DNA of 64,000 bases, taken from positions 434,001 to 498,000 of the forward strand of contig JAMWFC010000092.1 in NCBI GenBank assembly GCA_027475525.1, in the 5' to 3' direction. A program made the position numbers and the translations under genes. The first letter of the stretch is position 1; every line of letters starts with the position of its first letter. Below, one piece after another: positions 6,514 to 62,687 of this stretch. The notes under the pieces are model-generated. The model was not told the origin of the DNA, did not search any database, and worked only from the letters and a program-made list of their open reading frames with translations. This stretch comes from Macrolepiota albuminosa. Taxonomy: Eukaryota; Basidiomycota; Agaricomycetes; Agaricales; Agaricaceae.

Positions 6514-7247
6514 GTTGGGGGCTTTGCCCCCAAATTCCCCCCAACTAAGCCTCCACCCTAACCTCACTTTGTTGGGTTAAGGCCTCTGCATTTCACAACT
6601 CAGTGCTTATTCCTGGCCTCAACCTCACTTTGTTGGATTAAGGCCTCCGCATTTCACAACTCAGTGCTTATTCCCAGCCTCAACCTCACTTCGTTTGGTT
6701 AAGGCCTCCGCATTTCACAACTCAGTGCTCTTTCCACAACTCTCAAAGTATTATTGTAAGCTAAATTGAATTCTTCTTGAATTTTTCAGATTTTATTCAG
6801 CATTTATAAATCTTTAAAAAACTAAAAATCAGTATATTAGTAGCCTTTGAATTTTTCCTGATTTTCTGGTGATTTTTCTGGAATTATTTGAGCATTTTCC
6901 ACTAACATCTCCTGAAAAACAGAGCAATGAATTTTTCTTGAATCTTTCAGATTTCTTTAAGCATTTATAAACCTCAAAAAATTCACAATCAGTGTATCAG
7001 TAGCCTCTGAATTTTTCCTGATTTTTTGGTGATTTTTCTTCAAATTTCTAAGCATTTTATACATACATCTACCAAAAAACAAACGAAAAAGGAAGTATTT
7101 GTCAGCCTTAGTCAGAAACTGTCAAAACTGACTTTATACATACATCTACTAAAAAACAAACGAAAAAGGAAGTATTTGTCAGCCTTAGTCAGAAACTGTC
7201 AAAACTGACTAAGCACATCATTTCCCAGGCATCATCGCATTATATAG
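6475..7247 (-). mobile_element. Short Helitron-like unit 1
   Basis: On the minus strand it begins at about 7247-7250 with TCTATATAATGCGATGATGCCTGGGAAATG, parallel to the 5' end of the large Helitron (TCTATATAGAATGCGACAAGGCCTGAGAAA). It continues with the shared AGGCTGACAAA...CTTCCTTTT block and ends in the hairpin at 6475-6513. It contains three tandem copies of a roughly 61-bp repeat (AAGGCCTCYGCATTTCACAACTCAGTGCT, about 6576-6730) and no gene. A near-exact 77-bp tandem duplication (7059 and 7136) lies inside and is probably an assembly artefact. Confidence 0.55.
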
Positions 7248-7251
7248 AGAT

Positions 7252-7290
7252 GAGCTACGATTCGTGCCTTCGGCATGAATTTCATAGCTC
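7252..7290 (-). repeat. Helitron 3'-terminal hairpin, copy 1
   Basis: Arms GAGCTACGATTCGTGCC and GGCATGAATTTCATAGCTC pair around TTC. This is the 3'-end hairpin expected of a Helitron read on the minus strand. Further inside, about 7300-7500 holds three copies of a 60-bp repeat (CTCCACCCYAACCTCACTTC). Confidence 0.7.
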
Positions 7291-7579
7291 GTTGAGGGCT
7301 TTGCCCCCAAACCCCCCCCAACTAAGCCTCCACCCTAACCTCACTTCATTCGGTTAGGGCTCCAAGTATGTATAAGTAACTTAGCCTCCACCCCAACCTC
7401 ACTTCGTTTGGTTAGGGCTCCAAGTATGTATATAAGTAATTCAGTCTCCACCCCAACCTCACTTCGTTCGGTTAGGGGTTCCAAATATGTATCTTAGTAA
7501 CTCAGCTTCTATCATAATCTTACTTTCATTATGTCTTACTGATTCCAGCATAAGTTGTTAACAAATAGAGAGTTTCACA

Positions 7580-7822
7580 TTTATCAAGAAATGATGCTAC
7601 AATTCCAAGTTATATATATTCTATTAGTACAGTATCAACAAATATCAAGTTAGATGCTAAAATATAAAAGTTAGTAATAAGTAAGTAATTAACAATCACA
7701 CTCACATTTGTAAACCCAAGAAATAATGCTACAATTCCAAGTTATATGTACAGTATCAAGTTAGATGCTAAAATATAAAGTTAGTAATAAGTAGTTAATC
7801 AAAAATCACACTTACATTTGTA
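7580..7822. repeat. Diverged direct repeat in the Helitron 3' untranslated region
   Basis: Two copies of an AT-rich segment of about 110 bp (about 7590-7712 and 7728-7822) share ATGCTACAATTCCAAGTTATAT, AGTATCAAGTTAGATGCTAAAATATAA and CACWTACATTTGTAAAC. They lie just downstream of the helicase end on the minus strand. Confidence 0.6.
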
Positions 7823-7827
7823 AACCA

Positions 7828-9497
7828 TTAAGGACTTCTTGATATACAATATTTGCAGTTATTTTTGATGTATTTTCTTCTGACAGAATCACCTTGATAC
7901 GATCTCCTGATGTGCATCGAGAAAGTGCAACATAGAGTTGGCCATGTGTAAAAACTGGTGATCAAAGATCCAATCCAACATGCTTGACTGATTGCCCTTG
8001 AGACTTGTTGATAGTCATAGCAAAAGCCAATCGAATTGGAAACTGTCTCCTGCATAATAGTATTGGCATATCCTCTTCAGAGGCATCTAGATTGATCCTT
8101 GGAATCAAAACAGTTGAACCTGCAAACTTGGCATCTCCACTGATAATACAACATCTGAGGACTCTGGTGCTGATATGAGTGACAATCATTCTTGTTCCAT
8201 TGCAAAGTCCTTTGGTTGTGTCCAGATTTCTAAGGAGCATGACAGGAACTCCAATCTTCAAAGCCAGTTTAGCCAAAGGCAAACTACTGGCTTTCAAAGA
8301 GTTGAGATATTCCACAGGATATAAGGCAAGGCCATCAGGATTCCTGTTATCAGAGAGAACAGAATCTGCACTCTGTAAAATCCTTTCTTCCCCTGGATAC
8401 CTCTCTAGAACTTCTGCATTGATCTCCTCTATATCCGAGTTCTTGCCAGAGAGAATAGTCCGGTCCAGATAATACTGATCATTTTGAGGATGACCAATAT
8501 CAGGATATGTAGAAGAAATCAATCCAGTGATAGAATTGTCATCACAGATTATTCTTTCAGGCAGTTTGACTGTTTCTCCAGGTCCTAGATTTTTCCCTGC
8601 ACCAACATCCAACAACCAAGCTGCATGAGCAATATTCTCTGCAGTCTGATCCAATCTCATATTTTGGACCAAGTAATGGACTTGAATATGATCCCAAAGT
8701 CGGCCCCTTTTGAGTGAAGCAGCAATCATCTGCTGCCTAAGTCCATGTGGAACCACTGGAAGAGTTTGTCTGAAGTCCCCTCCAAAAACCACAGTAACTC
8801 CACCAAAGGAAATGTCATTATCAAAGATGTCTCTGAAGCCACGATCTACAAAGTCAATGGCATTTTTGTGTTGCATTGGAACTTCATCCCAAATAACAAC
8901 TTTGGTGCAAAGTATGAGCTGTGATAACTGGGTTCCTCTCTTGATATTGGCAATGGATGTGTCAAGAGCAGGAATGGGAATTTTGAATCTTGAATGAGCT
9001 GTCCTACCCCCTTCCAACAATAAGGCAGCAATGCCAGATGATGCTACACATAATGCCACATCTCCATTAGAACGAATAGCAGCAGCCAGAGTATTGCAGA
9101 CAAAGATTTTGCCACATCCTCCAGCACTGTGAATGAATAGCATCTTGCCCAAATTGTTGTTTACTGAGTTCATGACAACATCAAAGGTCTCCATTTGTTC
9201 CATATTGAACTTGGCCTTGTTCCTCTCCACTCTTTGCTTGAGCTCCTCAACATCATAATTAATTTCATCTTCTAAAAGTCGATTGCCTAGAAGAATGATC
9301 AGTATTCAAGTCAATCTTTTATGCAAATGCCAATTACCTGGAACTATATTCCAATTCTGTTGAGCCTCTGGCATGTTGGGAAAGTCTTTCAGAGTTTTTC
9401 CAAAATTCATCAAAGTGTCATTGATGAGATAAAGGCCATAGTCATAGACATCCTCATTGGTAAAGACTCGGTCCCTGTATTGCCTAGTATGTTCCAA
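7828..9497 (-). pseudogene. Helitron Pif1-like helicase region
   Basis: C-terminal half of the Helitron protein, which unwinds DNA during rolling-circle transposition. Seen in order: EYE-like lead-in, Walker A SAGGCGKIF (Pif1 relatives have GGTGKT; the T-to-I change would impair the P-loop), Walker B VVIWDEVPM, GGDFRQTLPVV, and the late motif MTINKSQGQ. A 51-bp intron at 9287-9337 (GTAATT...TTCTAG) joins NIVPG to NRLLEDE. A TGA codon at 7962-7964 after VGLDL replaces an expected Arg, and the frame then continues with [16 protein letters not shown], the last helicase motif. Another TGA near 9504 separates it from the upstream part. Confidence 0.85.
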
Positions 9498-9503
9498 TCT
9501 GTG

Positions 9504-11065
9504 TCAAAGATCATCACAAATAGAATGGTTGAATTCGTCCCATAGCGCCTCAGGAGTGGCAGGAGCACAGTGGAATAGAATAGTGCAAAACAGCTGTCTG
9601 AGAGCTGATCCTAGTTGGATTGGAGCAGCTTCAGTGAGACACTGCCTCCATTCTGCATCATCCTCCAAAAGACCTAGAGCCTTGCATGCTTCCTGATAAG
9701 TGGGATAGATATGGCCATTGACTGTCCTGAGATCAGCCCATGAAGTTGCATTGGTTACAACAGTCAAGAGCATCCTGAGATAGAACCTTTCTCCCTGTCT
9801 TGGTGAAGCAAAATACATCCTTTCAATTGCTGTCCCTCTCTGCCTCTCCTTCCAACTCCGTTTAGATGCTTCATAAACAAACTTGGTTGGAAAGTTCTGA
9901 TAAGTGGTGTTATTATTGGGAAACCTGGTATTGGCTTCAAACCAAGCTGTGAGTGCAGTCTTGTCTGCATTAGGTCTAGCAGCCACCACCTGTATTGGTT
10001 CATCATCTGGGAAATAGACTTCATGCTGGTTTTCCAAGTGCACAGGCAATCTGTACACTGAAGGATATTCAGCATGCATGTTGAATTCAAAGATGTGCCA
10101 GCAAGCCTCAGGAGCAGAAATGTATCTGGCATCCAAGTGTTCCTTGATTTCATCCCTCTCCTCTCTAGCAATCTCCAAAGTTGTCCTATCATGGCCCTTG
10201 TAGATGTACTTGTGAATGTATTTGATTGCATCCACTGAAGCACAGACTTCCACATTGATATGACATTGGAATTTGGCTGAGAGATATGGATTGTATGGGA
10301 CAACATTACGATTGTCATAACGACAACCATGCTTTTCAAAAAAGCAGCCATTGTTAGGTCTGGCATATTGTATGGGACAACATTACGATTGTCATAACGA
10401 CAACCATGCTTTTCAAAAAAGCAGCCATTGTTAGGTCTGGCATATTGAGGATAGCCATCATCACCATACTGTGTAGCCTCTTGAAATTCCTTGGGATATC
10501 TCTTGGAATATTTGCCATCTACCATGCACTTGGCATTGGGAAAATCTGCTCCACATGGACCATGAACCATATTGGTAGTAACAACCTAATAACAAAGGTC
10601 AGTCACTGCATTGATAATTCAAGCAAAGCCAATACCTGATACAATTGAGGCTGAGTCACTGGATCAGGAATTTGAGCAGAAACAATAGTGTCCACATGAG
10701 CTGCATCTTTGATCTTGTCATGATGGTGAAAAAAGATCAAGATATGTATATGTGGAAGTCCCCTCTTTTGGAATTCAATGGTATGGACAGATGCCACACA
10801 TTTTCCAAAGAGACCATCTTTGATATCCTTCAAAAGAGCATTTTTCTTGAGTTCAAATACTCTGGCAACAATATCTGGACGGTCAGAAGCTGTTTGCCTC
10901 TTTCCATTAACTATAGGTTCTTTCAACAGAGCATCTTCAATTTCTGGCCACTTTGGATTGGCAGTCATGGTAATGAAGAGATCTGGTTTGTGGAAATGCC
11001 TGCAAATAGCCATAGAGTCCTGGAATCATTGCTGCATATGTCGTTCACTTCCAACATGAGAAGAG
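9504..11065 (-). pseudogene. Helitron HUH replication-initiator (Rep) region
   Basis: Contains FHKPDLFITMTANPKWPEI and, near 10736-10770, RGLPHIHILIF with the two metal-binding His of the HUH motif. Near 10192-10235 is KYIHKYIYKGHDR, holding the two catalytic tyrosines typical of Helitron Rep. These nick and rejoin single strands during rolling-circle replication. An intron at 10586-10635 (GTATTG...ATTAG) joins LYQ to VVTTNMVHGP. A 77-bp tandem duplication (10291 and 10368) shifts the frame ahead of the Tyr motif. An in-frame TGA near 11025 follows RHMQQ where related proteins have Arg. The 5' border is the gypsy insertion at 11066-11070. Confidence 0.85.
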
Positions 11066-11070
11066 GAAAG
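11066..11070. repeat. Target-site duplication (left), GAAAG
   Basis: GAAAG directly precedes the left gypsy LTR (TGTCACG...) and recurs at 22290-22294 directly after the right LTR (...CTGACA). A perfect 5-bp duplication is usual for Ty3/gypsy integration. Confidence 0.95.
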
Positions 11071-11791
11071 TGTCACGACCCCTCCCCTCTGGGCCCACCC
11101 CGGGACACCCCCGGAACACCATCCGGGACCCTCCCTCTGACCCCACAGGACACGCCCCGCCATCAGGACCGCCGGCACCGCCATCAGCCACCACCAGCCC
11201 CGATCACCAATCGGATCACGCAACTCGTTCCCAGCCATCACGCATCACGCATCACGGCTCCATCTGCGCCAATTGATCGCACGCCCCACACGTGCGATCC
11301 CGGTATGCAGCCCCTGCCGCTACTCAATGACCCCCGGAACACCATCCCAGACATCCCGGAATCCCGAGACCCGGCTCTGTAGTACTTATAGCATAGCTCC
11401 CTGTTGTATTCGGTAGTCTTGATATTACATTGCTTTACTTGGATTGTTGCGTGCCCTCTGCTTGACTGGTACGCATTGACTGGCACGCTTTTGACTGGCA
11501 CGCTTGAATACTTGCGTGCTCTAAGATTGGTACGCACTTCGCGACTTTAATTTGCTAACTTGGTCTCGTCTTAGAACCTCCGGTTCACGACTCGACCCCC
11601 ACCCGAACTCCCCAGCTACTTACCACCCAAAACCCCCGGACCAAATTCCCTTCCCCGGGATTCCCCTGTCCACGTCTTGAACCCCGGAGTCCTAGCCCCG
11701 GAGTTCCAGACACCCGAGTACCCGTAGGTCAAGTCCGCATTGTAAGGGCGATCGCTTTCCCGGAAGGCCCCCGACTCAGCGGAACCTGACA
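11071..11791 (+). repeat. Left (5') LTR of the gypsy element
   Basis: 721 bp, from TGTCACGACCCC to GGAACCTGACA, nearly identical to 21569-22289. It holds GTACTTATAGCATAGCTC near 11382-11400 as a possible TATA-like promoter element. Confidence 0.95.
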
Positions 11792-11824
11792 TAATATCAA
11801 GACTCCCTCCTTACACCGTTCTTG

Positions 11825-14738
11825 ATGGCTACGTATACTCACACCTACTACCCCACGGGCTACCAGACCGACCCCTACGGGCGCCCGGTACCCAAGCATT
11901 ACTCCGTGCAGACCCCCCGCCCCGTCTATCCACCCCTTCCATACGAACCCCCGTACCTCCACCGCCATTGGGCCCCCGACCCATCCCTCTACGATCTGGG
12001 GCCCTCAGCCAGCTGGGCCCCTCCGCCCAACTTAGCCATGGCACGACCCGTGGAGGTCCCCTCGTACCGGAGCATCCCCGGGGGCCTGCCGGAGACCCCA
12101 CCAGTACCCAGTGGACCTCGCCCGATCCCCCCCAGCGAGGGCCCCTTTGCACCCACCCCCTACTACGGCTACCAGCGCCCCGTCCCAGTGGACCTCGCCC
12201 GATCCCCCCCAGCGAGGGCCCCTTTGCACCCACCCCCTACTACGGCTACCAGCGCCCCGTCCCCCAACCCCGAGAACCCCGAGGACTCCCCTACCCCGAC
12301 TACCCCCCTCGTCACTACCCGGCCACCGCTCCACCCGCTCGAACCCCTCCCTCGCCAATGGGACGACGACGCCTCGAGGAGTATGAACGGCAACGGGACG
12401 AAGTACTCCAGAGGACTTCGCTCAACGGACAAGGGCGCTGCTCATGGAATTCGGGCACGACAACTTCGAAGGCACTCTGGAGGAATGGGCTCATTGCTTG
12501 GTCAAATTTGGGGACCGCCTCACGCGAGGGGAACTCCTGGAGCAAACTATGGTAAAGTATAGGCGCAATACGATCCTCCGAGAAGAATTGCAACAGCTGC
12601 TCGAGGGGAACTCCTGGAGCAAACTATGGTAAAGTATAGGCGCAATACGATCCTCCGAGAAGAATTGCAACAGCTGCTCGACGAAGTCCACGCGTCCCCC
12701 TCCCCTCGACCCCTCAACGACCCCGTGGACCCAGGTCGCTCGATCCACGTTCGACGGGAACCTCCGGAGCCGGCTCCGGCAGCCCCGACAGCCTCCGTGG
12801 ACCCCACTCCAGAACAACAACAATGGGAAGAGCGACAAAATGCCTCAGCCATATTGCGGTCCCTCAACCTGACTGGGGGCCTCTTCAATCAACCCGCTGC
12901 CCGCACGGTAGGCTTGTCAACTCGCCACAGGGCTAACTCCGTTCCTAGTACCTTTGAGACCTGAGGACAGCCCCAAAGACCTCTGGAACCCCTCCCGCGA
13001 ACAGACAACGCCCAACCCCCGGCCCTGGCGAACCCCAGTAGACCCCGCGCGGACACCCCTAGCACGGACGACACGCTGTGCTACATCGACGAGCTCATGC
13101 GTGGCAACAACAAATCCCGTTCCGCGCCCGCGCCCGTCCTGGTACCGCCCCCTATGTCAGCCCCGGTTCCTCCGGAACGCAACTTCTGCCGTGATCTGCC
13201 ACCCCACTTTGACCTACAAAACCCCCCGCAACCCCTGATGCAAGCACGACCCTCCCGGGTTGAACGCCCCCCGCGCAACCCGGCCCCCCTCCGCCCGACC
13301 CAACACCGCCGAACCCTCCCCGACCACCTCCACCACCCCCAGCCGAACCCCGAGGATGACCCCCAGGGACCCCACCTCTGCCACCCCCTGCGTGGAGACC
13401 CGGGCCTCCTCCTGGCAGGAACAAACCCCCCTGGGATAACGGGCCCCCCGGGCGTGGACCCCCAGGTGAGCGGCCCGGGGGAGGCCCTCCAGGCGGGTGG
13501 AGTCCCGCCCTTGGTGCTTTTCCTCCTCAAGGAGGGGGGGGTAATCACTACTACTACTATTACAATGCTGGCCCCCCTCCCCGCAACGCTGCCGGACCGG
13601 ACGACGCTCGCGACGCCCTCGCCCGCGAAGGACGACTGGACATCCAAAAGCCTGACGCTTTCACGGGCCGGGACCCCCGAAAATGGCGTACCTTCCTCAC
13701 TCAGTGTCTCAATACATTTCAGGCAAAGCCGCTCACGTTTCAGGTTGACAGCTCCTGGGTGGCCTTTGCCGCATCGTACCTCCAGGGGATCGCCTTTGAC
13801 CACTACACGGCCCTCATCCAGTTCGACCCCAACAACCAGGCACTCGCTCGCTGGCAGGCTTTCGTCGACGAGTTCTCCGGGAAGTTCGGAATCTACGACA
13901 CCGTGGCTGAGGCCGAGGACAACCTCTTCAACCTCCAGATGCGCTCGGAAGAACGTTTCACCACCTTTATCGTACGTTTTGAGAAGGAAGCTTACAAAAC
14001 AGGTTGGAACTATAGCGCCCTCCAGTACGCCCTCCACCGCGCCCTGCCACAACGCATCAAGGATGTCCTCCGACTCGCTCCGAAACAACCCTCCTACGAC
14101 GGGTACAAGGCCCTCGTCATGCAGATCGACCAACGCTACTGGGAAGACCGCAGCGAGTGAAACAACCCTCCTACGACGGGTACAAGGCCCTCGTCATGCA
14201 GATCGACCAACGCTACTGGGAAGACCGCAGCGAGTATTTGAATTCCCGACCCCCCTGGAACCCTAGAGGAGGACCCCCTTGGCCCTCCAGCGAAACCCCC
14301 AACCCCCAAAGTTGAAACCCCGGTCCCCCTGCGTTCCCTAGTGGTCGACCCCTGGTGAGTCGCAGCCCGCCCAATGCTAACCCCGGCAGCGGCGTCCGCC
14401 TCCAGGCCCAGCTTAACGCCGCCGTGGCCGCCCACGACCCGGGCGACGTGCCAAGTCCCAAGGAACCCCCGGAAAACCCCGAAGACTTCAACTGCGACGA
14501 CGAACGGGACGAGGAGGCCCTCCGGGCCAACCAGCTTCAAAAGAAGGGACGACCCTGGATCGAAGTCCCGACGGATGTGCAGGAACGATGGAGAAGGGAG
14601 GGTGTCTGCATACTCTGTGGTGAGAAAGACCATTTCATCTCCGAGTGCCCCAAACGACAGGTCATGGGACATGCCACCTGGACCTTCGAAGGGGAGGACA
14701 CCATCTACGAGTATTCGGAAAACGACCCGGCAATTTAG
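11825..14738 (+). pseudogene. Gypsy gag (capsid and zinc knuckle)
   Basis: Begins MATYTHTYYPTGYQ at 11825, continues through a Pro/Tyr-rich region, a helical segment (FEGTLEEWAHCLVKFGDRL, 12444-12600) and the capsid-type Gag domain (FTGRDPRKWRTFLTQCLNTF to the segment ending RYWEDRSE, about 13640-14160). It ends with a CCHC zinc knuckle, CILCGEKDHFISEC (CX2CX4HX4C, about 14610-14650), and TAG at 14736. Gag packages element RNA into virus-like particles. Breaks: 77-bp duplications at 12111, 12525 and 14082, TGA codons at 12962-12964 and 14313-14315, and small shifts near 12430 and 13400. Confidence 0.8.
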
Positions 14739-14910
14739 ACCCGGAAGACGCCCTAAATCGCGGAATCGACCCCGACGTCTTCTCCGCCCCGGTCTCACAC
14801 CTTTGCTCTACGACACTCATAAAGACGCCCTAAATCGCGGAATCGACCCCGACGTCTTCTCCGCCCCGGTCTCACACCTTTGCTCTACGACACTCATATA
14901 GGACACCCTC

Positions 14911-15310
14911 ATGGCCTACCTACCCTCCTACTCCTCACACTCCCTCCTCCTCAAAACCCGCCTCACCCCCTCCGGAACCTCCCTCAACACCCTCGTTGAC
15001 AGTGGCGCCACTGACAACTTCATCGACAAAGCATGGTCCACCCTCGCCCCGGAACCCGCTCAGCGACTCCCGGTCCCGGTACGGCTCTGCCTCTTTGACG
15101 GGGACGCCTCTACGGCGGGGGACATCACTCATTTTGTGCGTATGCCTGTTACCTTTGCCAACGGACAGACTCACACCCTCCGGATGTTGATAACCAAACT
15201 CCACCCTTCCGCACCCCTGATCCTAGGGCTCCCGTGGCTCCGAGACACCAATCCCCGCATCGATTGGCAACATCTCACCCTTCGACTGACCCGGGACCCG
15301 ATGCCCGACG
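14911..15310 (+). CDS. Gypsy pol, first retropepsin domain
   Basis: Starts MAYLPSYSSHSLLLKT at 14911 and carries the catalytic aspartate motif LVDSGATDNFID (about 14992-15027), then LILGLPWLRDTNPRIDW and a beta-strand end. This is an aspartic protease that processes Gag-Pol. An in-frame TAG just upstream (about 14898-14900) follows the 77-bp duplication at 14745, so how Pol is started or joined to Gag is not clear. The open frame continues in frame 1 toward 15354, where a CCCAAAG heptamer lies. Confidence 0.8.
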
Positions 15311-15389
15311 ACCAGCAACTCCCCTTCGACATCCCCCACTCTCCGGACCCTACCCCAAAGGATGGGCCTCCACCACCCCCGGACTCCAG

Positions 15390-15910
15390 TCCCGTTCATC
15401 CCGATCCTTCGTCATCAATGCCAGGCTGGACGGCGCCCCAGGACCAGTCTTGGCCCTCATCGACAGTGGAGCCACCGGAGTTTTCATCAGCGACGCTCTT
15501 GACCTCCCCCACGACTCCCTCGACCAGCCCCTCCGCCTGCAACGCCTCAACGGCACCCCCTCCTCCTCCGGCCCCATCCACTCCCCCACGACTCCCTCGA
15601 CCAGCCCCTCCGCCTGCAACGCCTCAACGGCACCCCCTCCTCCTCCGGCCCCATCCAAAGGTCTCACTTGGGACGCGTGACCCTGGACAACAACTACGAG
15701 TTCACTTCCGACTTCCTGGTCACGCGACTTCACGAATCGACCCCGATGGTGCTGGGACTACCCTGGCTGCGCAACACAAACCCCGACATCGATTGGAGGA
15801 CGCTCACCATGACCTTCCCGGGACCCGAAGACCACCCCCCTGGCTGCGCAACACAAACCCCGACATCGATTGGAGGACGCTCACCATGACCTTCCCGGGA
15901 CCCGAAGACC
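15390..15910 (+). pseudogene. Gypsy pol, second retropepsin domain
   Basis: In the -1 frame relative to the first protease, SFVINARLDG leads to LIDSGATGVFIS (about 15450-15495) and, past two 77-bp duplications (15504 and 15764), MVLGLPWLRNTNPDIDWRTL. The paired DSGAT and GLPWLRxTNPxIDW motifs repeat those of the first domain, so the element encodes two tandem retropepsin-like domains. A Pro-rich linker follows to 16257. The frame is broken by the duplications as assembled. Confidence 0.7.
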
Positions 15911-16260
15911 ACCCCTTGACCGCCGTGCACCTCCGGGCCCTAGGGAACGACCCGACGCCCGACACCCCCAGGACGACTGACGCACCCCCCACGCATGCAC
16001 CACCCACGCCCGTCCGAGACCGCAGGGCCCCCGATCGACCCCCAAACATTCCTCAGAACAAGTACAAAGGGCTGAACTACCCCTGCCAGTCTCAAACACA
16101 CGTCACACCCGCTCTGGCCGATGCTTCCGCAACCCCAATTGACCCGAGCGCGCTCAACATTAGGATCATTGGGGCCGCCCCCTTCACCCGCCTCATGAGG
16201 GATGGAACTCCCACGTTTCAGCTGCACACCTCGCCTTCCCTCCCGGAAGAACATCTATGA

Positions 16261-19200
16261 GGGGACGCTATTTCCCTGGAAAAGAAAACCGAGGAGCAAA
16301 TCCTCCGAGAAGTAGTTCCCCCGGAGTATCACGAGTTCGCTGACGTATTCTCCAAAGGAGACGCCAAGGAGATCCCCCCTCACCGCCCCTATGATCACAC
16401 CATCGACCTCGAGGAAGGAGCCACCCCCCCTTTCGGCAAAGTAAGGAGATCCCCCCTCACCGCCCCTATGATCACACCATCGACCTCGAGGAAGGAGCCA
16501 CCCCCCCTTTCGGCAAAGTATACAATATGTCGGAGGTCGAACTCCGGGCCCTCAAGGACTACCTCGACAAAATGCTCGGTAAGGGATTCATCCAACCCTC
16601 CGCCTCTGCCGCCAGAGCCCCGGTTCTATTCGCCAAGAAAAAGGACGGCTCGCTCCGGCTCTGCGTTGACTACCGGGGATTCAATAAGATCACCAAGAAG
16701 AACCGCTACCTGCTCCCGCTCATCGGCGATCTGGTCGATTGACTCTGCAGTGCCAAGGTTTACACGAAAATCGACCTCCGCTCCGGTTACAACAATGTCC
16801 GCATTGCCCCAGGACACGAGTGGAAAACCGCGTTCCGCACACGGTATGGTCTGTTTGAGTACCTTGTGATGCCTTTCGGAATGACTAACTCCCCCGCCAC
16901 GTTCCAATACTTCATGAATAACATTTTCCACGACATGAGCGACGTCTTCGTGATTGTCTACCTGGACGACATCCTCATTTATTCCGACTCACCAGAGGAC
17001 CACCAGAAGCATGTCCGGCAAGTCCTTGAACACCTCCGGGAGCACAACCTCCACGCCAAGCCCGAGAAGTGTTCATTCCATACGAAAGAGGTTGAGTATC
17101 TTGGCGTCATCGTATCCCCGAACGGCGTCCGCATGGACCCCCACAAGGTCGAGGCCATCGTCAACTGGCCGCAGCCCCGGAATGTCAAGGAAGTACAATC
17201 TTTCCTGGGTTTCGCTAACTTCTACCGGAGGTTCATAGATAACTACTCCGGTATCACAAAACCCCTCAACCGGCTCACGTGCAAGGACGTCGCCTGGAAC
17301 TGGGACAGTAAGTGCCAGAGCGTCTTTAACCTGCTCAAGGAGGCTTTTACAGCCGCCCCCGTGCTCCGGCACTACGACCCAACCCTCCCGATTATCCTAG
17401 AATGTGACGCCTCCGACTACGCCATCACTGGGATTCTCTCACAGATGGAGCCTGACGGTGGGGAGCCCTGGCCAGTCGCCTTTTACACCCGGTCCATGAT
17501 CGACGCCGAGCTCAACTACGACATCTACAACAAGGAGCTCCTCGTCATCGTCGAAGCCTTCAAGCAATGGTGAGCCTACCTCGAGGGAGCCCGGCACCGG
17601 ATTCAGGTCTACTCGGATCACAACAACCTGCAGTACTTCACCATGACCAAGCAACTTAGTCGACAGCAGGCCCGGTGGTCCGAGATCCTCTCGGAGTACG
17701 ACTTCACGATCCAGTACCGCCCGGGACGACTTGGAGCTAAACCCGACGCCCTCACCCGTCGGCTGGACGTCTACCCCAAGAAGTCATTCGAGGTGGAACG
17801 CAATGCGTTCAATCATCGCGTGGTGATCCCTCCCGAACATTTGAATGCTGTACTGATCTTAAACGACGAAGGAACCCTGAGCCAGATCCACTGCGCCTCC
17901 CGAGACAAGTATTTCGCCGATCATGACCCCCGCAACCCTCCCGACAGAACCGACCGGGACCCCGCCTTTTCCTTGTCTCCCAACAAGAAACTCCTCCTCC
18001 GGGATGGCCGCATTTACATCCCGGATCACGCCCGACTCCACTACAACGTCCTGCGCCAGCACCACGACCACAAGCTCCGGGGACACCCTGGGATACGTAA
18101 GACCCTCCAGCTTATCTCCCGGACTTACTTTTGGCCAGGATTGAAGAAGGATGTGACCCGCTACATTCGATCATGCAAAACCTGCCTCCGGGCCAAGGTC
18201 CCCCGACACCGACCGTATGGACTCCTGAAACCCCTGCCGGTCGGACAACGCCCCTGGTCCTCCATATCTCTGGACCACATCATCGAACTCCCGGAATCTG
18301 AAGGGTTCGATGCCATCCTTGTTGTTGTGTGTAGGCTAACCAAACAGGGCATTTTCCTACCCTGCCACACCATGGACACCGCCCCGGACTTTGCCCGGCT
18401 GTTCCTTGAGCACGTCTTTGCCAAACATGGACTCCTGGATGACATCATCTCCAACCGTGGCCCCCTCTTCGTGTCCAAGTTTTGAACTTCCCTGTGTAAG
18501 GCACTTGAAGTAAAGACTAACCTCTCTACCGCCTACCACCCTGAAACCGACGGCCAAACCAAAAGGGTCAACCAGTCTCTCGAGCAGTACCTCCGACTGT
18601 ACGTCAACTACTTGCAGGACGACTGGCACGCCGAACACCCCCTGGCCGAGTTCACCTACAACAACACGCCACACTCTGCCACCGGGGTATCCCCCTTCTT
18701 CGCCAACAAAGGGTACCACCCCCGACTGACGCTCTCGCTCCGGGACATCCCGTCGCACGCCGCCCACGAGGTCGCCTGGAATCTCCAGTCCCTTCACGAG
18801 TTCCTCCGGAAAGAGATTGACACCGCAAACCAGGCCTATGCAAAACATGCCGACCAGAAACGGGAAGACACTCCTAACTGAAACCCCGGGACAAAGGTAT
18901 GGTTAGACCAACGCCACCTCCGCACCCGGCGACCCTCCCCAAAGCTCGATCATAAGCGCCTTGGCCCGTTCAAAATACTGAAGAAGGTCTCCTCCCACGC
19001 CTACAAGATCGAGCTTCCCCCAGGACTAAAAGGCCTGCACCCGGTATTCCACGTCCGCCTCCTGGAACGACACTCCCCGGATCCTTTTCCCGAATGACGC
19101 CCCGGGCCCCCTCCCCCGGTAGAAGTCGAGGACGAGTATCACTACGAAGTCGAAGACATCCTCGACTCCCGAAATATTCGTGGACGACCCCACTTCCTTG

Positions 19201-19350
19201 TATGGTGGAAGGGATACGGCCTGGAAGACGACACTTGGAAACCACACCGAAACCTCAAAGGCGCCCTCGACAAACTCCGGGACTTCCAACAACGGCACTC
19301 GGGAAATGACCTTCCCGGGCGCAGGACACACAGACGGCAGTAGTGGGCGT
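16261..19350 (+). pseudogene. Gypsy pol: reverse transcriptase, RNase H, integrase and chromodomain
   Basis: One frame runs through RT ([20 protein letters not shown]; active site IVYLDDILIY near 16945-16980), RNase H (LECDASDYAITGIL, about 17397), the integrase zinc region (HHDHKLRGHPGIRKTL...CKTCLRAK, about 18058-18200) and core (SLDHIIELP; TAYHPETDGQTKRVNQSLEQ). It ends with FHVRLLE and a chromodomain-like [23 protein letters not shown]...DTWKP (about 19150-19250). The chromodomain can steer integration to modified chromatin. Five TGA codons (16740, 17571, 18483, 18879, 19095) interrupt it, with another at 16258 just upstream and a 77-bp duplication at 16366. No other stop type is seen in this frame. 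Confidence 0.9.
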
Positions 19351-19601
19351 AACCCCCGCCTCTGGGCTCAGTAGGGATTCAACTCCCATGTATACTTTCC
19401 GCTTTCCTTTTCTACATCTCACTCTCTCCTAGTACCTCTTCGTAGTAGCGCCCTGGAGTCGGGGCAAGGTCTCTTTCCAACTCTTTACTAATCTCTTACC
19501 CGCTTTTACTCACTCCGGCAGTCCAAGTATATACAGCTACAAATTACATTACTCTACAAAGTACCAAGACCAGCGACAAGAAAAAAAAAAAAAAGGGACC
19601 C

Positions 19602-21387
19602 CTAATACTGGGGCCCCAGATCCCCCTCCCCCTCCGCCTCACCTCCCTCCCCCACCTTCCCGGGCCAACCTCGGAACCCCTCCCCCATTCCCCCCGGACC
19701 GTGTTCCTGCAGTGCCTCCTCTGCCAACTGCTCCCAGGACAGGAGAGGTTCGCCCTCGTCCAAGATCCTCTTGAACCACGAACCGGGGGCGGGCACGTTC
19801 CCCACCAGTGCGCCGATACCATCCGCCCCAGCAATTCGAGGCCTCGCTCCATCCCAGGGGTCGTCATCTCCGGACGCTGGCCCTCCTGTAGCGACGCCAG
19901 CGCCGCAGCCGCCCCGTCCAGGAGCAAGCAATGCTTCCAGGCCCAGCCTGGACGCGTCATTAGGAGACCAAACCCGAGGGAAAAAGAGACTCACTTAGCG
20001 CGGCCATGCGGGCCACCACTACGTCCAGACGCAAGTCCTCCACCAACCCCTGAATTCCCGGGAGCCCCACCCCTTGCCCCAGCCTCGCCCGCAACGCCTC
20101 TAACTCGGCCTCCGCTTCTTCTCGGGCGACCCTGGCCTCTTCCAGGTCCCGGGCCATCCCCTCCCGACCCTCCTCCAGACCTCTCCTGGCCGCCGCCCCC
20201 TCCCTCACCTCCTCCTCGTGACCCTCCTGTTCGCGCCCGGCCCGCTCCTGCAAAGCCTCGAAGTCGCCAACCAGGAGTCCCCTGGACAAGGGGGAGAACT
20301 CCGCGGGGGACAAGCGCGGGGGAGAGACCGGAGATGGGGTCCTCAGGGGCAGACGCACCCTCTTGGAGGGCCTCGGGGAGGGACTGGGCGACGCCCGTCT
20401 CTTCCCCTTGTTAGGACGCCCCCCACGACCCTCGTGACCCCCGGCCCCGGCCCGGGTCGCCCGACGTGTGATCAGGACCATGGGACGGGCCTGGCCCGCC
20501 ACCCGGACGACCCCCTGGCCCCCCGACCCCCCACGGGGCGCCTCCGCGGGCACTGCGGACGCCTCCCCCGCCGACTCCAGCCCTGGCTCCGCCCCCTCCA
20601 CCGGCTCCACCACCCAGTCCTGCTTCTCAACCCCCATCCTCCAGGTGACCCCCGCCAATGGCCACCCCTGCTCCCGTGCGACGCATCGCGCCCTCCACAG
20701 CGCCGACACGGAACACTGCTCGTGGTTGAGGCGGCACGCCTCGCACACGGAAGTGTCCCGGTGGGACGAGGACGCCGGGGCCTCAAATAAGCAGGGCACC
20801 AGCCGGCGGGCGCAATGCAGACACTACGGCTCCAGAGTCAGCCAGGAGACCCGAGGTAGGAACCCACTTACCGGCCCATTACTCACACATCAGCTGTGGG
20901 CAGGCAACCCCCGGGGCCTCTCCAAAGCCTCCGCAAAAACCTCCTGTGACACGCCTGCCCACGCGACGTGCCGGTCGTCCGGGACCACCGTCACCGTCCC
21001 TACCGCCATCCTGGAGCGACGAAATTGAGGGGCGGTTAATCGAGGCCGCGGAGGAGGGCGAGGGGGACGCACGGTTATCCGTGCGAAGGTGGGCACGGGA
21101 CGGCCACGGCCGGGCCCCGAAGAAGGACCAGGGGCCACATCAGGTGGACGTGCCGGGAGCCAACTGAGACCCGCCTCCGGGGCAGGAATGTTTTGTTGTT
21201 CTGAAAAAGGAAGGTCAGTAGCAACAAGCGAGTGGCGTGGGAAACACTCACGTTGCTGCGCAAGCGCCGCCACGCACTCCTGGTCTTGACAGGCTCAGTA
21301 CCGCGCGTCCCGGGCTTCCCAAGCCATGAGGGGCACGACCTCGTTGGTTTGCGGGGGCGTCAGGGAATGCGTTGGCGTACACGACAT
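19602..21387 (-). pseudogene. Antisense accessory gene of the gypsy element: double CX2CX6C protein with coiled coil, spliced
   Basis: Opposite to pol, between pol and the 3' LTR. Predicted exons are 21252-21387, 20872-21200, 19995-20823 and one or two further exons ending at 19602. Splicing at 21201-21251 (GTGAGT...TTCAG) and 20824-20871 (GTAAGT...TAG) keeps the frame. Exon 3 opens with CLHCARRLVPC, followed 15 residues later by CEACRLNHEQC. Two CX2CX6C blocks resemble the fungal Zn2Cys6 cluster, so metal and perhaps DNA binding are possible. A basic serine/proline tract (KGKRRASPSPSPRPSKRVR) and a long E/R-rich coiled coil follow. Two in-frame TGA codons (near 21295 and 20885) disable it as assembled. 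Similar Cys-rich plus coiled-coil proteins occur in agaricomycete repeats; the function is unknown. Confidence 0.65.
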
Positions 21388-21473
21388 GGTTGAACTTGAC
21401 GGTAAAAAATTTTTTCGATACGTGGCGAGTCAGGTGCCAGATCCCACGGTTGGACCCCGGTCCGGGGCTACGC

Positions 21474-21491
21474 GCGCTGAAGGGGGGGTGA
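21474..21491 (+). other. Polypurine tract of the gypsy element
   Basis: GAAGGGGGGGTGA lies immediately before the 3' LTR start, the expected place for the plus-strand primer. It is duplicated at 21558-21568 by the 77-bp tandem duplication. Confidence 0.6.
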
Positions 21492-21568
21492 TGTCACGAC
21501 CCCTCCCCTCCGGGCCCACCCCGGAACACCCCCGGAACACCATCCGGGACCCTCCCTAGGGGGGGTGA

Positions 21569-22289
21569 TGTCACGACCCCTCCCCTCCGGGCCCACCCCG
21601 GAACACCCCCGGAACACCATCCGGGACCCTCCCTCCGACCCCACAGGACACGCCCCGCCATCACGACCGCCAGCACCGCCATCAGCCGCCACTAGCCCCG
21701 ATCACTGATCGGATCACACGACTCGTTCCCGGCCATCACGCATCACGCATCACGGCTCCATCTGTGCCAATTGATTGCGCGCCCCACACGCGCGATCCCG
21801 GTATGCAGCCCCTGCCGCTACTCAATGACCCCTGGAACACCATCCCAGACATCCCGGAACCCCGAGACCCGGCTCCGTAGTACTTATAGCGTAGCTCCTT
21901 GTTGTATTCGGTAGTCTTGATATTACATTGCTTTACTTGGATTGTTGCATGCCCTCTGCTTGACTGGTACGCATTGACTGGCACGCTTTTGACTGGCACG
22001 CTTGAATACTTGCGTGCTCTAAGATTGGTACGCACTTCGCGACTTTAATTTGCTAACTTGGTCTCGTCTTAGAACCTCCGGTTCACGACTCGACCCCCAC
22101 CCGAACTCCCCAGCTACTTACCACCCAAAACCCCCGGACCAAATTCCCTTCCCCGGGATTCCCCTGTCCACGTCTTGAACCCCGGAGTCCTAGCCCCGGA
22201 GTTCCAGACACCCGAGTACCCGTAGGTCAAGTCCGCATTGTAAGGGCGATCGCTTTCCCGGAAGGCCCCCGACTCAGCGGAACCTGACA
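21569..22289 (+). repeat. Right (3') LTR of the gypsy element
   Basis: 721 bp, matching the left LTR in length and ends. Bases 21492-21558 are an extra copy of its first 67 bp, produced by the 77-bp duplication (21481 and 21558). Confidence 0.95.
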
Positions 22290-22294
22290 GAAAG
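22290..22294. repeat. Target-site duplication (right), GAAAG
   Basis: Matches GAAAG at 11066-11070, and the Helitron coding sequence resumes after it. Confidence 0.95.
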
Positions 22295-24557
22295 GACCAC
22301 ACGTCGACTTTGCCTGCCTAAATCTTCATCTCCAGTAGCCGCATTGACCACTCCTTGATAGACTTCAGCCCTAATCTTCTTTTGATTCTGTCTAACCCAG
22401 TTGAGCTTTGATTGTTCTATTGATGCCCATGCATCCACAACATATTGCTGGAACAGTCTGCCACTCCAAAGCAATGCAGCATTAGCTTCCAAAGCTCTCT
22501 GCTGCAGCCTATATGCATAATATGCAGTTTGGCTGACATTTTTGGCTCTTTGTTCTCCTGCTGGTCCAAACTGAGATTGAATATTGGTGTAAAATCCAGG
22601 TTCTCCAGTTGGAAATATGATAGTGTAATGCAGAGGAGTGTAATAGGGGTGTAGATGGCTGATTCGCTTCAATTGACCTCCATGCAGATGCAAGACTATA
22701 TCGCGATGATCGGATTGTTCTTCAGAACCATCTCCTGATATAATTGCAGCAACTCCTTCCTGTTCATTGGGGTTGTTATAGCATCGATGATCTCCAAAGT
22801 CAGCCCTAAGTTGAACAGAAAGCCTTTGTGGTTGGCCTTCAGGAACTTCTGTCATAATCTGCTTTGCAAGCTTGTATAAGCCAATAAAGGGATTGACTCT
22901 ATGAAGCATATGCCTTCAGGAACTTCTGTCATAATCTGCTTTGCAAGCTTGTATAAGCCAATAAAGGGATTGACTCTATGAAGCATATTCTGCAAAGAGG
23001 CCATTATCTGAGGATTCAATCTAGGATTGCTTCCTTGACAAAAAGCCAATTGTTGATTGTGATCATAGAAGTAGAGTTGTGCATACATAGGATGATTGCC
23101 TTCAGTTGGAAGCAAAGCACCTGTCAGATGATGGAGCTCTCCATTGATCCTAAAGCTGTATGGTCCAGGAGCATTTGTAATTGCATGGTCAATCTTGACT
23201 CCCAGAGATGTAAATGCAAAAGCAGCATTGTATTGATGGATAGATGCTTTGAAAGCATCAGAAAGAGCATGATGGCCTTGGAGTAAGCCAAGCAGTTCTG
23301 GTGGAGCATCAGCAAGTCTGGGCAAATCAATCTGGCCTTGCAGACAGCACATGCCAAATTTTGTATGATGTCTAGTAGAACTGGTGAGCTTTTCAGCATT
23401 CCAATGTAGAGCCTGACAGTGTGGACATATGACATCCATAAGACCAAGATAATGTGCTGAGGGTTCATCTATATAAGGCTGTCTTCCTCTTGGAAGAGCA
23501 TTGATGCCTTGAATATGATCAACCCTTTGTAAGATAGGAGGTGCTGGTAGATTTTGCACAGGTGGATCCACATATTCCAAGTCCTCCTCCATATCCTCAG
23601 CAGGATCATTTCTAGGATCTTCTGGTAGGACTCTTGGTTGTTCCTCTACTATTGCTTGTGCCAATTCCTGTTGCCTCTGTTGTTCTTGAATCATAGCCAT
23701 ATGTCTCAGCCTTTCCTGCTCTTGCAATTCTGCTAGTGTGGGAGCTGGCAGAGATGGCATAGAATTCTGTACAGATACATTTCTGACTCTTCTAAATGCC
23801 AGAGCAGGTAGGGGTGGCACCATAGGCATAGGATTCTGTAAAGGAGTGTTCCATCCTTCAGGCAGAACAGTTTCAGGAATGTCCACAGGAAGTGGAGCAA
23901 TAGTAGGCAGGTTGTTTCTTCTATGTATAGGAAGAGGGAGAGCAGGTAGAAGTGGTATCATTCTGGGCCTATTGTTTCTTCTGGATGTAGAAACAGGTAG
24001 AGGTGGCACCATTCTAGGTATAGGATTCTGTAAAGGTCCATCCCATCCTTCAGGCAAAAGAGTTTGAGGAATGACAATAGCAAATGGATCCTGAGCAACA
24101 ATAGGCATATTCCCAGACTCTCTACTCCCAGACCCTATACCCCCAGACTCTCCTCCCCCAATCCCTATACCCTCAGACTCTCCTCCCCCAGACTCTCTAT
24201 CCCTAGACTCTATACCCCCAGACCCTATACCCCCAGACTGTCTATTCCCAGACTCTCTACCCTCAGTTCCTTCAGTTTGAGGAATGACAATAGCAAATGG
24301 ATCCTGAGCAACAATAGGCATATTTCCAGACTCTCTACCCCCAGACTCTCTATCCCCAGACCCTATACCCCCAGACTCTCTATCCCCAGTTCCAAAATGA
24401 AGTGGTATAACCACAGAAGTAGATCTTCTACTTCTATGTGCACGATGATCATCAGGATCAGTCATTTGCAACTGTTGAAGCCTGCTTTCAATCCTAGCCT
24501 GCTGTCTTTGACCTTCAGGAGTACTGGGTTGAGAATGAGTAGTTGAAGATTGCCTAA
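22295..24557 (-). pseudogene. Helitron protein, N-terminal region
   Basis: Minus-strand coding upstream of Rep. It begins after a likely acceptor near 24556 and runs through a low-complexity RESGGIGSGxRESGG tract (about 24060-24400), a Pro/Leu-rich tract, and a conserved block CPHCQALHWNAEKL...CCLQGQIDLP, with the two Cys pairs typical of the zinc-like element ahead of Helitron Rep. Next come SYxFRINGxLHHLTGALLP and the start of the Helitron_like_N domain (LHLHGGQLKRISHLHPYYTPLHYTIIFP). A 77-bp duplication (22835 and 22912) breaks the frame once. The gypsy insertion cuts it right after RRVVLS. Confidence 0.8.
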
Positions 24558-24599
24558 ATTATTGATTTTTTAAGCATTTCAATAGCTCAAACTCTTTAA

Positions 24600-25130
24600 A
24601 AGTTACTTACATGATGATATATCTAGTATATCAATAGCTAAATGTTGTCAAGCTTTCACTAATAAGCTGAATTCAATGTTTATTAGCATTGATCAATAAT
24701 AAATGAACTAATACTAACTGTTTGTAGTGTCAAATAAGCTGAATTGAATATGTATTAGCATTGATCAATAATAAATAAACCAATACTTACTTTGTTGTAA
24801 TGATTTCGGATTTGTTTGTAGTGTCAAATACTGTTTGTAGTGTCAAATCAGCTGAATTAGCATTGATCAATAATAAATAAACCAACACTTATTTTGTTGT
24901 AATGATTTCGGAATTGTTTGTAGCTGAATTGAATGTTTAGTAATTGATCAATAATAAATAAGCCAATACTTACTTTGTTGGATTTCGGAATTGTTTGTAG
25001 CTGAATTGAATGTTTAGTAATTGATCAATAATAAATAAGCCAATACTTACTTTGTTGTAACTTTGTTTGTAGTGTCAAATAAGCTAAATTCAATGTTTGT
25101 AAACATTGATCAATCAATCAACAAATTGAC
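24600..25130. repeat. Minisatellite-like repeats in the Helitron 5' leader
   Basis: About six diverged copies of a 75-100 bp AT-rich unit built on AATAAGCTGAATT, TTGATCAATAATAAATAA, CCAATACTTACTTTGTTG and GATTTCGGAATTGTTTGTAG. One step has a period of exactly 77 bp and identical copies (24904 and 24981), so it may be an assembly duplicate rather than a genuine repeat. Confidence 0.7.
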
Positions 25131-39480: not shown

Positions 39481-41270
39481 ATATGACAACCAAGGCAGCT
39501 ATCTAAGCACTCACATGCTTGGATAAGATTATGTCAGATCTGGATCTGATCTAATGCCATCATCTAATAAGATGAGGTAACAAAATAAGATTGGATCATT
39601 AAAGTCAGATCAGGTTATGTAACCTGATAAGCACAAATTGTTTTTCTGGAAACTGCTGCATCAACATATTGGTCAATGCCATCTTTGTTTGCAGGGCAGC
39701 TTCAGCTATTGCAGAGATAGAACCCACAGAGTTTTGATATGGAGGGAGAGCAGCAAGTGGCTATTAGTATGGGAACAACAGCCCCAATGTCAAGCATGGC
39801 AGCATACCTGGCCATGGCTTAGTTTGGGCAGAACTCAGCCCAATTTGAACAGACCCCACTATTTTTCCTATAGTTTTACCCCATGCCATTTTTTCCAGGT
39901 TTCACCAGGCCTGGACAACAATCAATGCAGATGCAGGTGCCATGAGGAATGATGGTGTCACAGGCACAGCAGGTAGTGTCTATAGAGGTAGATGAGGACA
40001 AGAAGGTGATCAAGGCACAGAGTGAGGTAGATCTACCTTGAAATGAGCATGGTTGGTTGCCTGTGGGAGAGAAAAGAAATCAGAGCAAGGTAGTTCCACC
40101 TTAGTAAGATCATAAGCAGTTTCCTCCACAAGAAGTGGTGAGGAGGCTGGTGGTAAACCAGGAACCATTAAGGAGAAGAGACAAGATGCTGTATTGAGAT
40201 GATCACAGTAAGCTGTGCAGGCAAAGTCAACTGTGACCTCAATCACCACCATGTCCAAGGTCTCTTGTTAAGGAAACAATCCTCATTACTATGAAGAATC
40301 CTGTAAGTGAAAAAGAGAAAGAGAGAGTGGTTGAGAACTGAGCAGACTCTCAAGTAGAGCTTGTGTAGTGCTATTTGATTGTGGCAGGACAGCATGTCCT
40401 GTCAGAGTCAGAATTTTTGAAGGACCTAGTGGCCCAGGTGGTAATTGTGGGCCTGTTGGATGAGATTGTTATATTGCAACAGGGTAACAATAATACAATT
40501 AAAATGTTTGCCAACACAATGAAGCAGCAAGTGATGATACCAGAAGAGCAAACTGAGGCTAAGCACCTCAGGCCACATGGCAAGTGATGATACCAGAAGA
40601 GCAAACTGAGGCTAAGCACCTCAGGCCACATGAGATGAGAGGAAGATTAAGTGAGGTATAGAAAGTAGTGCAAGTGCTGATAGCACCTCCTGAATCCAGA
40701 GAGGCAGGAGAGTTGACTCCTTTCTCTGCAGAGTTGGAGGAGGATGAAATGTCTGTTGATGACAAGGACTACAGGCTGGCCTTGTTGCTACACATCTCCA
40801 GCACATTGAAAGTGCAGAGCAAGCAGAAAGTTGCTCTGCAAGAATCAACAATCCTTTTTCAAGCTGATGTGCCAAAAGGAGCTGGACTAAGAGAGATCTC
40901 ATTTTTCCTTTCTGTAGTGAGTTTCAAAGCTCCTTGAGGCTCATATGTGCCAGAATTGCCTCATCAAGACATGTGCATAGATAATCAAGTAGAAAATTAT
41001 CTTCTGACTTTGGCAGTGCTAGGCATTGTAATGGCAATGCTAGTAACTATGGGACAAGCATTGAGGAGACCCTGTCAGAGGGAGAAATGGCAGTGCAGAA
41101 GAACTTGCAGTTGAATCACAACTACAAGTCAGCCATCAGAAAGAAAGCTACTATGGGCAAGCAGGCAAAAATCAACCAAGACCATTGGAAACAGGCCATC
41201 AGGCATATCCCAGATATGCTGCCTTAGATGAGCAGCTTTTTTGTTACACTACTTATAGGACTAGAATCAA
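39481..41270. other. Transposon-derived sequence without recognised coding
   Basis: CpG-poor. About 39500-39640 holds a short-period TCAGATC/AAGAT-rich stretch of the kind found in LTR ends. Plus-strand open stretches at 40375-40587 and 40668-40937 match nothing I recognise. A 53-bp tandem duplication (40528 and 40581) starts CAAGTGATGATACCAG. Confidence 0.35.
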
Positions 41271-51947: not shown

Positions 51948-56555
<4,608 letters not shown>

Positions 56556-62615: not shown

Positions 62616-62687
62616 TGGCGTACAGTATTCATCGACCGGTTTGATCGACAATGGCGTACAGTATTCATCGACCGGTTTGATCGACAA
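62616..62687. repeat. Tandem 36-bp duplication
   Basis: TGGCGTACAGTATTCATCGA... occurs twice head-to-tail (62616-62651 and 62652-62687), identical by eye. It lies between the recombinase gene and repeat B1. Its period of 36 sets it apart from the 77-bp artefact class. Confidence 0.85.

Follow-up and report, generated by a model that had tools for sequence, protein, structure and literature searches.

A 64,000-nucleotide stretch of the Macrolepiota albuminosa genome assembly (contig JAMWFC010000092.1, here C43, positions 434001-498000; hereafter the window) raises a simple question. Why should twelve short tandem duplications, lying in a long terminal repeat (LTR) retrotransposon, in Helitron sequence and in other repeat sequence, all have a unit of 77 base pairs (bp)? 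The source assembly comprises 100,137,612 bases in 129 contigs. Our analysis indicates that the 77-bp pairs are almost certainly an artefact of assembly, in which pieces of a graph that have 77 bases in common were joined with the common part left untrimmed, and are not biological. The initial annotation had already read them as untrimmed joins of k-mer overlaps, and this reading is now supported by the spectrum of tandem periods, by single copies of the units elsewhere in the genome, by an enrichment of units at branch points and by boundaries that differ between related copies.

The window was compared with itself at all distances from 5 to 2999, and periods of at least 20 were listed. All 12 of the pairs described earlier were recovered with a period of exactly 77, 11 of them exact and one carrying a single mismatch (each base being compared with the base 77 further on), and four starts moved by 1-4 bp: the maximal runs begin at 7056, 10290, 12107 and 15761, in place of 7059, 10291, 12111 and 15764. 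At 11 sites the unbroken run at distance 77 measures 77 bp (six sites), 78 bp (two), 80 bp (two) or 81 bp (one), and the start of any run longer than 77 bp is ambiguous by 1-4 bp. The twelfth site, at 7056-7133, has a 78-bp run with one mismatch at 7073. Tandem Repeats Finder reported the same 12 places, the last of them as a 2.5-copy row (24862-25060), and the self-comparison found no further period-77 site in the 64 kilobases (kb). The remaining exact tandems of period 20 or more have periods of 30, 36, 53 and 61, one case each. The exact two-copy tandems at 40527-40632 (53 bp) and 62616-62687 (36 bp) lie outside the transposon block; since their lengths differ, they are probably ordinary.

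Two samples of the assembly were examined for tandem periods: 20 stretches of 9.9 kb around other copies of the retrotransposon gag gene (198 kb), and ten random stretches of 4 kb (40 kb) drawn from 17 contigs that hold gag matches and total 28.5 megabases (Mb). Exact tandem runs that reach 20 bp and 0.9 periods all had a period of 77, both in the gag stretches (127 of 127) and in the random stretches (12 of 12). When all 30 stretches (238 kb) were scanned for adjacent repeats whose units measure 30-299 bp and agree to at least 95%, 146 of 147 had a period of 77, the remaining one standing at 44. A genome-wide period spectrum had been proposed beforehand as a check on the overlap reading; run on the 238-kb sample, it returned 77 as nearly the sole period and brought no refutation.

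The density of the pairs is best read from the random stretches: the gag stretches were picked with a query that itself holds a pair, which biases their pair density. Two of the gag stretches (L025 and L026) are identical, so that their sites are counted twice. Six of the ten random stretches carry sites, 14 in all (at least 66 of 77 bases matching), which amounts to 0.35 per kb (bootstrap 0.12-0.60). We searched one open reading frame (ORF) from each random stretch, the longest (in L031 the second longest), against Pfam. Transposon domains were found in two duplication-bearing stretches, L031 and L033; L032, which is without a duplication, gave a transposase match below the curated cut-off, and the ORFs of the seven remaining stretches matched no family. 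Judged from these domain matches, a link between pairs and transposons in the random sample is only partly shown.

A block of exactly 77 bases that is repeated gives a run longer than 77 only where the outer base matches by chance. Among 139 runs of at least 77, extensions of 0, 1, 2 and at least 3 bases were observed 77, 34, 16 and 12 times, against 78.2, 39.1, 14.7 and 7.1 expected (p=0.23); the extension fits chance, and there is therefore no sign of microhomology at the junctions. The two units of a pair are nearly identical, with 30 mismatches in 11,473 bp over 149 sites (0.26%), a count that leaves out sites with more than 11 mismatches. All eight pairs inside the LTR retrotransposon of the window are exact, with 0 mismatches, while its LTRs differ at 23 of 724 positions. 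Had these pairs arisen at random times since insertion, about 10 differences would be expected across the eight (estimated as half the LTR divergence times 616 bp); the divergence between units is thus not comparable with the age of the element.

Units, branch points and boundaries in other copies

We searched the whole genome for exact matches to units of the window, named here by the start of each run. Besides the window, the 22835 unit occurs at 44 places, the 24904 unit at five, the 15504 unit at two and the 21481 unit at one; the flanks of all these places were inspected, and 52 of 52 hold a single unit. For the 14745 unit there is no other exact place in the genome; at up to 3 mismatches it has 180 matches including the window's two (178 others), and among the roughly 100 matches listed, none of the others is spaced 77 bp from another. 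At the inexact site, 7056, an exact genome search found the first unit's version at two other places and the second unit's at none.

The 14082 unit is single on contigs C77 and C89, forms an exact pair on C92, and on C22 is part of a different exact pair, offset by two bases. An identical 154-bp block is present in the window and on C92, with flanks that begin to differ at the first base to the left and at the second to the right, as expected if both assembly paths pass through the same node. For the 10290 pair, the query included 110 bp of left flank; among the best 40 of 172 candidates scored, 33 end after one unit and seven pass through both (the window included). The places L101 and L102 were given a further check.

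In a graph built of 77-mers, segments end at those 77-mers that continue differently in different copies. For runs of exactly 77 whose unit was found exactly elsewhere in the sampled DNA, we scored whether the outer base differs there, and compared the result with control 77-mers from the same stretches. In the untargeted set (29 stretches plus the window), 77 duplications yielded 18 units found elsewhere and 9 that branch, against 7074, 533 and 49 for the controls (Fisher p=2e-5). With the addition of flanks chosen for the window's own units, a choice that favours the result, the numbers became 78, 22 and 12 against 7074, 536 and 49 (p=2.8e-7); a looser first version of the test had given 145, 42 and 17 against 2900, 628 and 29. 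That the unit is a branching k-mer is therefore seen as an enrichment, not at each site.

Six sites of the window were searched in this way across the whole genome: four split at the unit edge, one does not and one has no other exact place. At 22835, each of the 44 other copies departs from the window right at the base that follows the unit; at 24904, four of five other copies differ at the base just before it; and at 14082, the base immediately to the left of the unit is different in two of the four other places. Of the 240 flanking positions around the 22835 unit, 14 are ones at which half or more of the copies disagree with the window. A split at a given edge of this unit would thus arise by chance about once in 17, which makes the enrichment across many sites the stronger evidence.

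Related copies of the repeats also allow the ends of the duplications to be compared. Near 14082, 22 duplications were aligned in the gag stretches (stretch L023 gave none), of which 19 could be placed on the window and three could not. The 19 begin at 14 different positions between 13961 and 14096, or at least 13 after allowing for chance extension. Near 10290, five other stretches contain six duplications, with starts at 10182, 10270, 10301, 10311, 10317 and 10322, none of which is the start seen in the window. Most related copies therefore do not share the same boundaries, and this suggests that most of the duplications are separate events, not one event that was inherited.

Probable untrimmed overlaps and the alternatives

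The most likely origin of such pairs is an assembly built on a short-read de Bruijn graph whose neighbouring segments share exactly 77 bases (k=77, or k=78 with an overlap of k-1), this graph having been threaded by long reads in a hybrid assembly. The use of long reads is suggested by the small number of contigs and by the lack of N both in the window and in the 30 sampled stretches. Some joins would then have kept the shared 77-mer untrimmed, so that it was printed twice, probably through a fault in path joining or in the graph-based correction of reads. The joined contigs of the initial annotation may accordingly have been pieces of a graph, put together either within a hybrid assembler or while reads were being corrected. 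Later polishing could have introduced the few differences between units, for example at 7073. The living genome would carry one unit per site.

Several observations weigh against this explanation. Within the sampled DNA there is no branching in 9 of the 18 shared untargeted units (10 of 22 with the added flanks). Among the sites of the window, 15504 splits at the edge in neither of its two other copies, the nearest differences being 4 and 12 bases away, and 14745 offers no other exact place at which a split could be seen. The strict count omits 14082, as the differing left base there equals the unit's own last base, and the split of 21481 at the unit edge, in its one other copy, may come about through a 1-bp shift. 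Four of the 19 placed duplications near 14082 could share the start seen in the window, a result that inheritance would produce as well. Mismatches between units (at 7056, and 30 elsewhere) are not given by an exact overlap alone, while polishing could produce them. Branching control 77-mers far outnumber the duplications along the sequence; this suggests that the fault was occasional and that the software usually trimmed correctly. One further place, L095 (C110:1767050-1767760), matches the 10290 pair over its full length at 99%, yet shows only short runs at periods 76 and 77, as if one unit had a 1-bp insertion or deletion.

Three other explanations can be set against untrimmed graph overlaps. 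The one that survives best, itself improbable, is a software fault that does not involve a graph of 77-mers: a scaffolder, gap filler or polisher might, for example, have copied a fixed anchor of 77 bp. Few long contigs (129) and the absence of N from the window and the 30 stretches do point to a step beyond short-read assembly, and the few units that differ are what polishing could cause; however, an anchor of this kind is not expected to end where repeat copies diverge.

It is even less probable that a real process in the fungus has generated, by recent and independent events in many repeat copies, tandem duplications with a length fixed at 77 bp. The pairs do occur in many contigs, in the window they lie only in transposon or other repeat sequence, and near-identical units are what very recent events would leave. 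Yet we know of no mechanism that sets the length of a duplication to the base across unrelated sequences. The units favour points where copies branch, and branching is relevant to a graph used in assembly but of no consequence to a repair enzyme; the junctions have no excess of microhomology; and the units are identical inside an element whose LTRs have diverged by 3%. One would have to accept that the fungus carries thousands of recent, independent 77-bp duplications, made by a length-measuring process that starts or stops where copies differ, and this strains belief.

Old duplications inherited within each transposon family might be suggested by at least 42 matches to the full 154-bp pair of 14082 (82-100% identity), by the seven matches through both units at 10290, by the identical pair on C92 and by the four of 19 boundaries that fit the window, but we consider them just as hard to credit, because the search ranks duplicated copies first (for 14082, the best 40 of 535 candidates were scored), the boundaries differ among most copies (at least 13 starts in 19 near 14082, and all six others at 10290), single-unit copies are common, and copies that are 88.7-96.0% like the window over flank plus unit nevertheless have near-identical units within each copy.

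Host elements and reading frames

The retrotransposon listed in Table 1 is bounded by LTRs at 11071-11791 and 21569-22289, which are 96.8% identical over 724 bp. Both run TGTCA...TGACA, and GAAAG stands on both outer sides (11066-22294) as a target-site duplication. Between the LTRs (11071-11794 against 21569-22292), 21 of the 23 differences are transitions, which would fit C-to-T mutation of repeats. The start of the 5' LTR is without a 77-bp pair, unlike the start of the 3' LTR (21481). The element sits between minus-strand Helitron pieces (Helitron_like_N at 22274-22915 and PIF1 at 7962-9305). The ORFs at 9504-10585, beside the PIF1 piece, are counted as Helitron because of where they lie, no Pfam family having matched them; the ORF at 22852-24558, upstream of the Helitron_like_N piece, matched no Pfam family either.

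Table 1. Coordinates of the 77-bp pairs and of their host elements in the window
Feature	Position	Strand	Run (bp)	Context	Basis
77-bp pair, one mismatch (7073)	7056..7210			no coding region recognised	self-comparison, Tandem Repeats Finder
77-bp pair	10290..10447		81	between minus-strand Helitron pieces	self-comparison
77-bp pair	12107..12263		80	inside LTR element, upstream of gag	self-comparison
77-bp pair	12525..12681		80	inside LTR element	self-comparison
77-bp pair	14082..14235		77	gag ORF end	self-comparison
77-bp pair	14745..14898		77	inside LTR element	self-comparison
77-bp pair	15504..15657		77	inside LTR element	self-comparison
77-bp pair	15761..15915		78	inside LTR element	self-comparison
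77-bp pair	16366..16520		78	upstream of reverse transcriptase ORF	self-comparison
77-bp pair	21481..21634		77	spans 3' LTR start	self-comparison, LTR alignment
77-bp pair	22835..22988		77	Helitron N-terminal region (minus strand)	self-comparison
77-bp pair	24904..25057		77	repeat sequence, no coding region recognised	self-comparison
LTR retrotransposon	11071..22289	+		holds 8 of the 12 sites	LTR alignment; gag, RVT_1 and Integrase_H2C2 domains (Pfam)
Helitron helicase piece (PIF1)	7962..9305	-			Pfam
Helitron N-terminal piece (Helitron_like_N)	22274..22915	-			Pfam

The initial annotation placed all sites in multi-copy transposon sequence. For the eight sites that were searched this stands as far as copy number goes, as 8 of 8 occur elsewhere in the genome; 12107, 12525, 15761 and 16366 lie inside the same LTR element. 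It also held that removing the extra units would rejoin gag, both proteases, pol and the Helitron protein. As 77 is not a multiple of 3, each insertion in a coding region shifts the frame. Our evidence on this second claim consists of the open phases that flank the pairs, and these speak for it clearly at 22835 only. There, the phases open to the left and to the right differ by the shift expected from 77 bases, and no single frame crosses the two units; in the single-unit copies a frame is open through all 351 bp in 36 of 44, and in the window, with both units, none is.

At the other sites the frames are less clear, and the claim as a whole is weakly supported. Near 14082, a frame stays open through 551 bp in the single-unit copy L039 but not in L040, also a single-unit copy, and to the right of the pair the window has none open; near 14745, phases are open for at least 120 bp without the expected shift. 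At 10290, 15504, 15761 and 16366 the expected shift is found among the open phases; since, for some or all flank lengths, an uninterrupted frame crosses the two units as well, the frames at these four sites say little. As to the proteases, Pfam recognised none in the ORF at 14902-16260.

Elsewhere in the window, the ORF at 53005-53667, which has a helicase domain, matches a protein of Termitomyces sp. T32_za158 at 99% identity over 97%. Contig C78 (322000-347000) matches the window between about 41.7 and 60.2 kb at three 1-kb spots, in order and at 94.8, 99.9 and 99.3%, and is about 6.5 kb longer between the spots at 41.7 and 45.2 kb of the window. A 264-bp piece of the helicase gene, from a stretch without a pair, has two places in the genome, identical in the window and in C78. 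On the strength of the three ordered spots the assembly seems to hold both haplotypes of the window region. Two further pieces of C78, L103 and L104, taken where the helicase gene would place the transposon region, align with the window in reverse orientation only, at 83 and 75%. The identical gag stretches L025 (C81:806900-816800) and L026 (C81:250500-260400) lie about 556 kb apart and agree over 9898 bp, 77-bp pairs included; they represent either a duplication of very recent date or one sequence that was assembled two times.

Consequences for the record and known systems

If the random sample is typical, the 100-Mb record would hold about 35,000 false 77-bp insertions (12,000-60,000), or about 2.7 Mb, as extrapolated from 40 kb. 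Counts of intact transposons, pseudogene calls, repeat libraries, surveys of tandem repeats and comparisons of insertions and deletions that draw on this record would then be wrong. The period spectrum of exact tandem repeats offers a cheap check for faults of this kind in other assemblies.

In graphs of the SPAdes type, adjoining segments overlap by exactly one k-mer, and a k of 77 is commonly used in SPAdes. Joining such segments untrimmed would print pairs like those described here, a likeness that does not establish SPAdes as the software behind the source assembly. According to the Unicycler paper, the SPAdes process creates overlapping sequences at contig ends, which Unicycler removes (PMC5481147). 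A literature search found no description of a k-length tandem artefact in titles and abstract openings, which says little, as many journals lie outside its coverage.

The k-unitigs of MaSuRCA overlap by k-1, so that an overlap of 77 bases would need k=78 there. The genome of Termitomyces sp. T153, from the same genus as the protein matched by the ORF at 53005-53667, is described as a hybrid assembly of BGISeq and Nanopore reads made with MaSuRCA 3.4.1 and polished with POLCA (PMC10126200). We treat that assembly as a lead only, since our results do not show it to be the genome analysed here. False duplications are known from draft assemblies, where single-copy sequence is printed twice; they are usually of variable length and stem from uncollapsed haplotypes or from read errors. 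The pairs described here differ from these in that their length is fixed at 77 bp and the two copies are adjacent.

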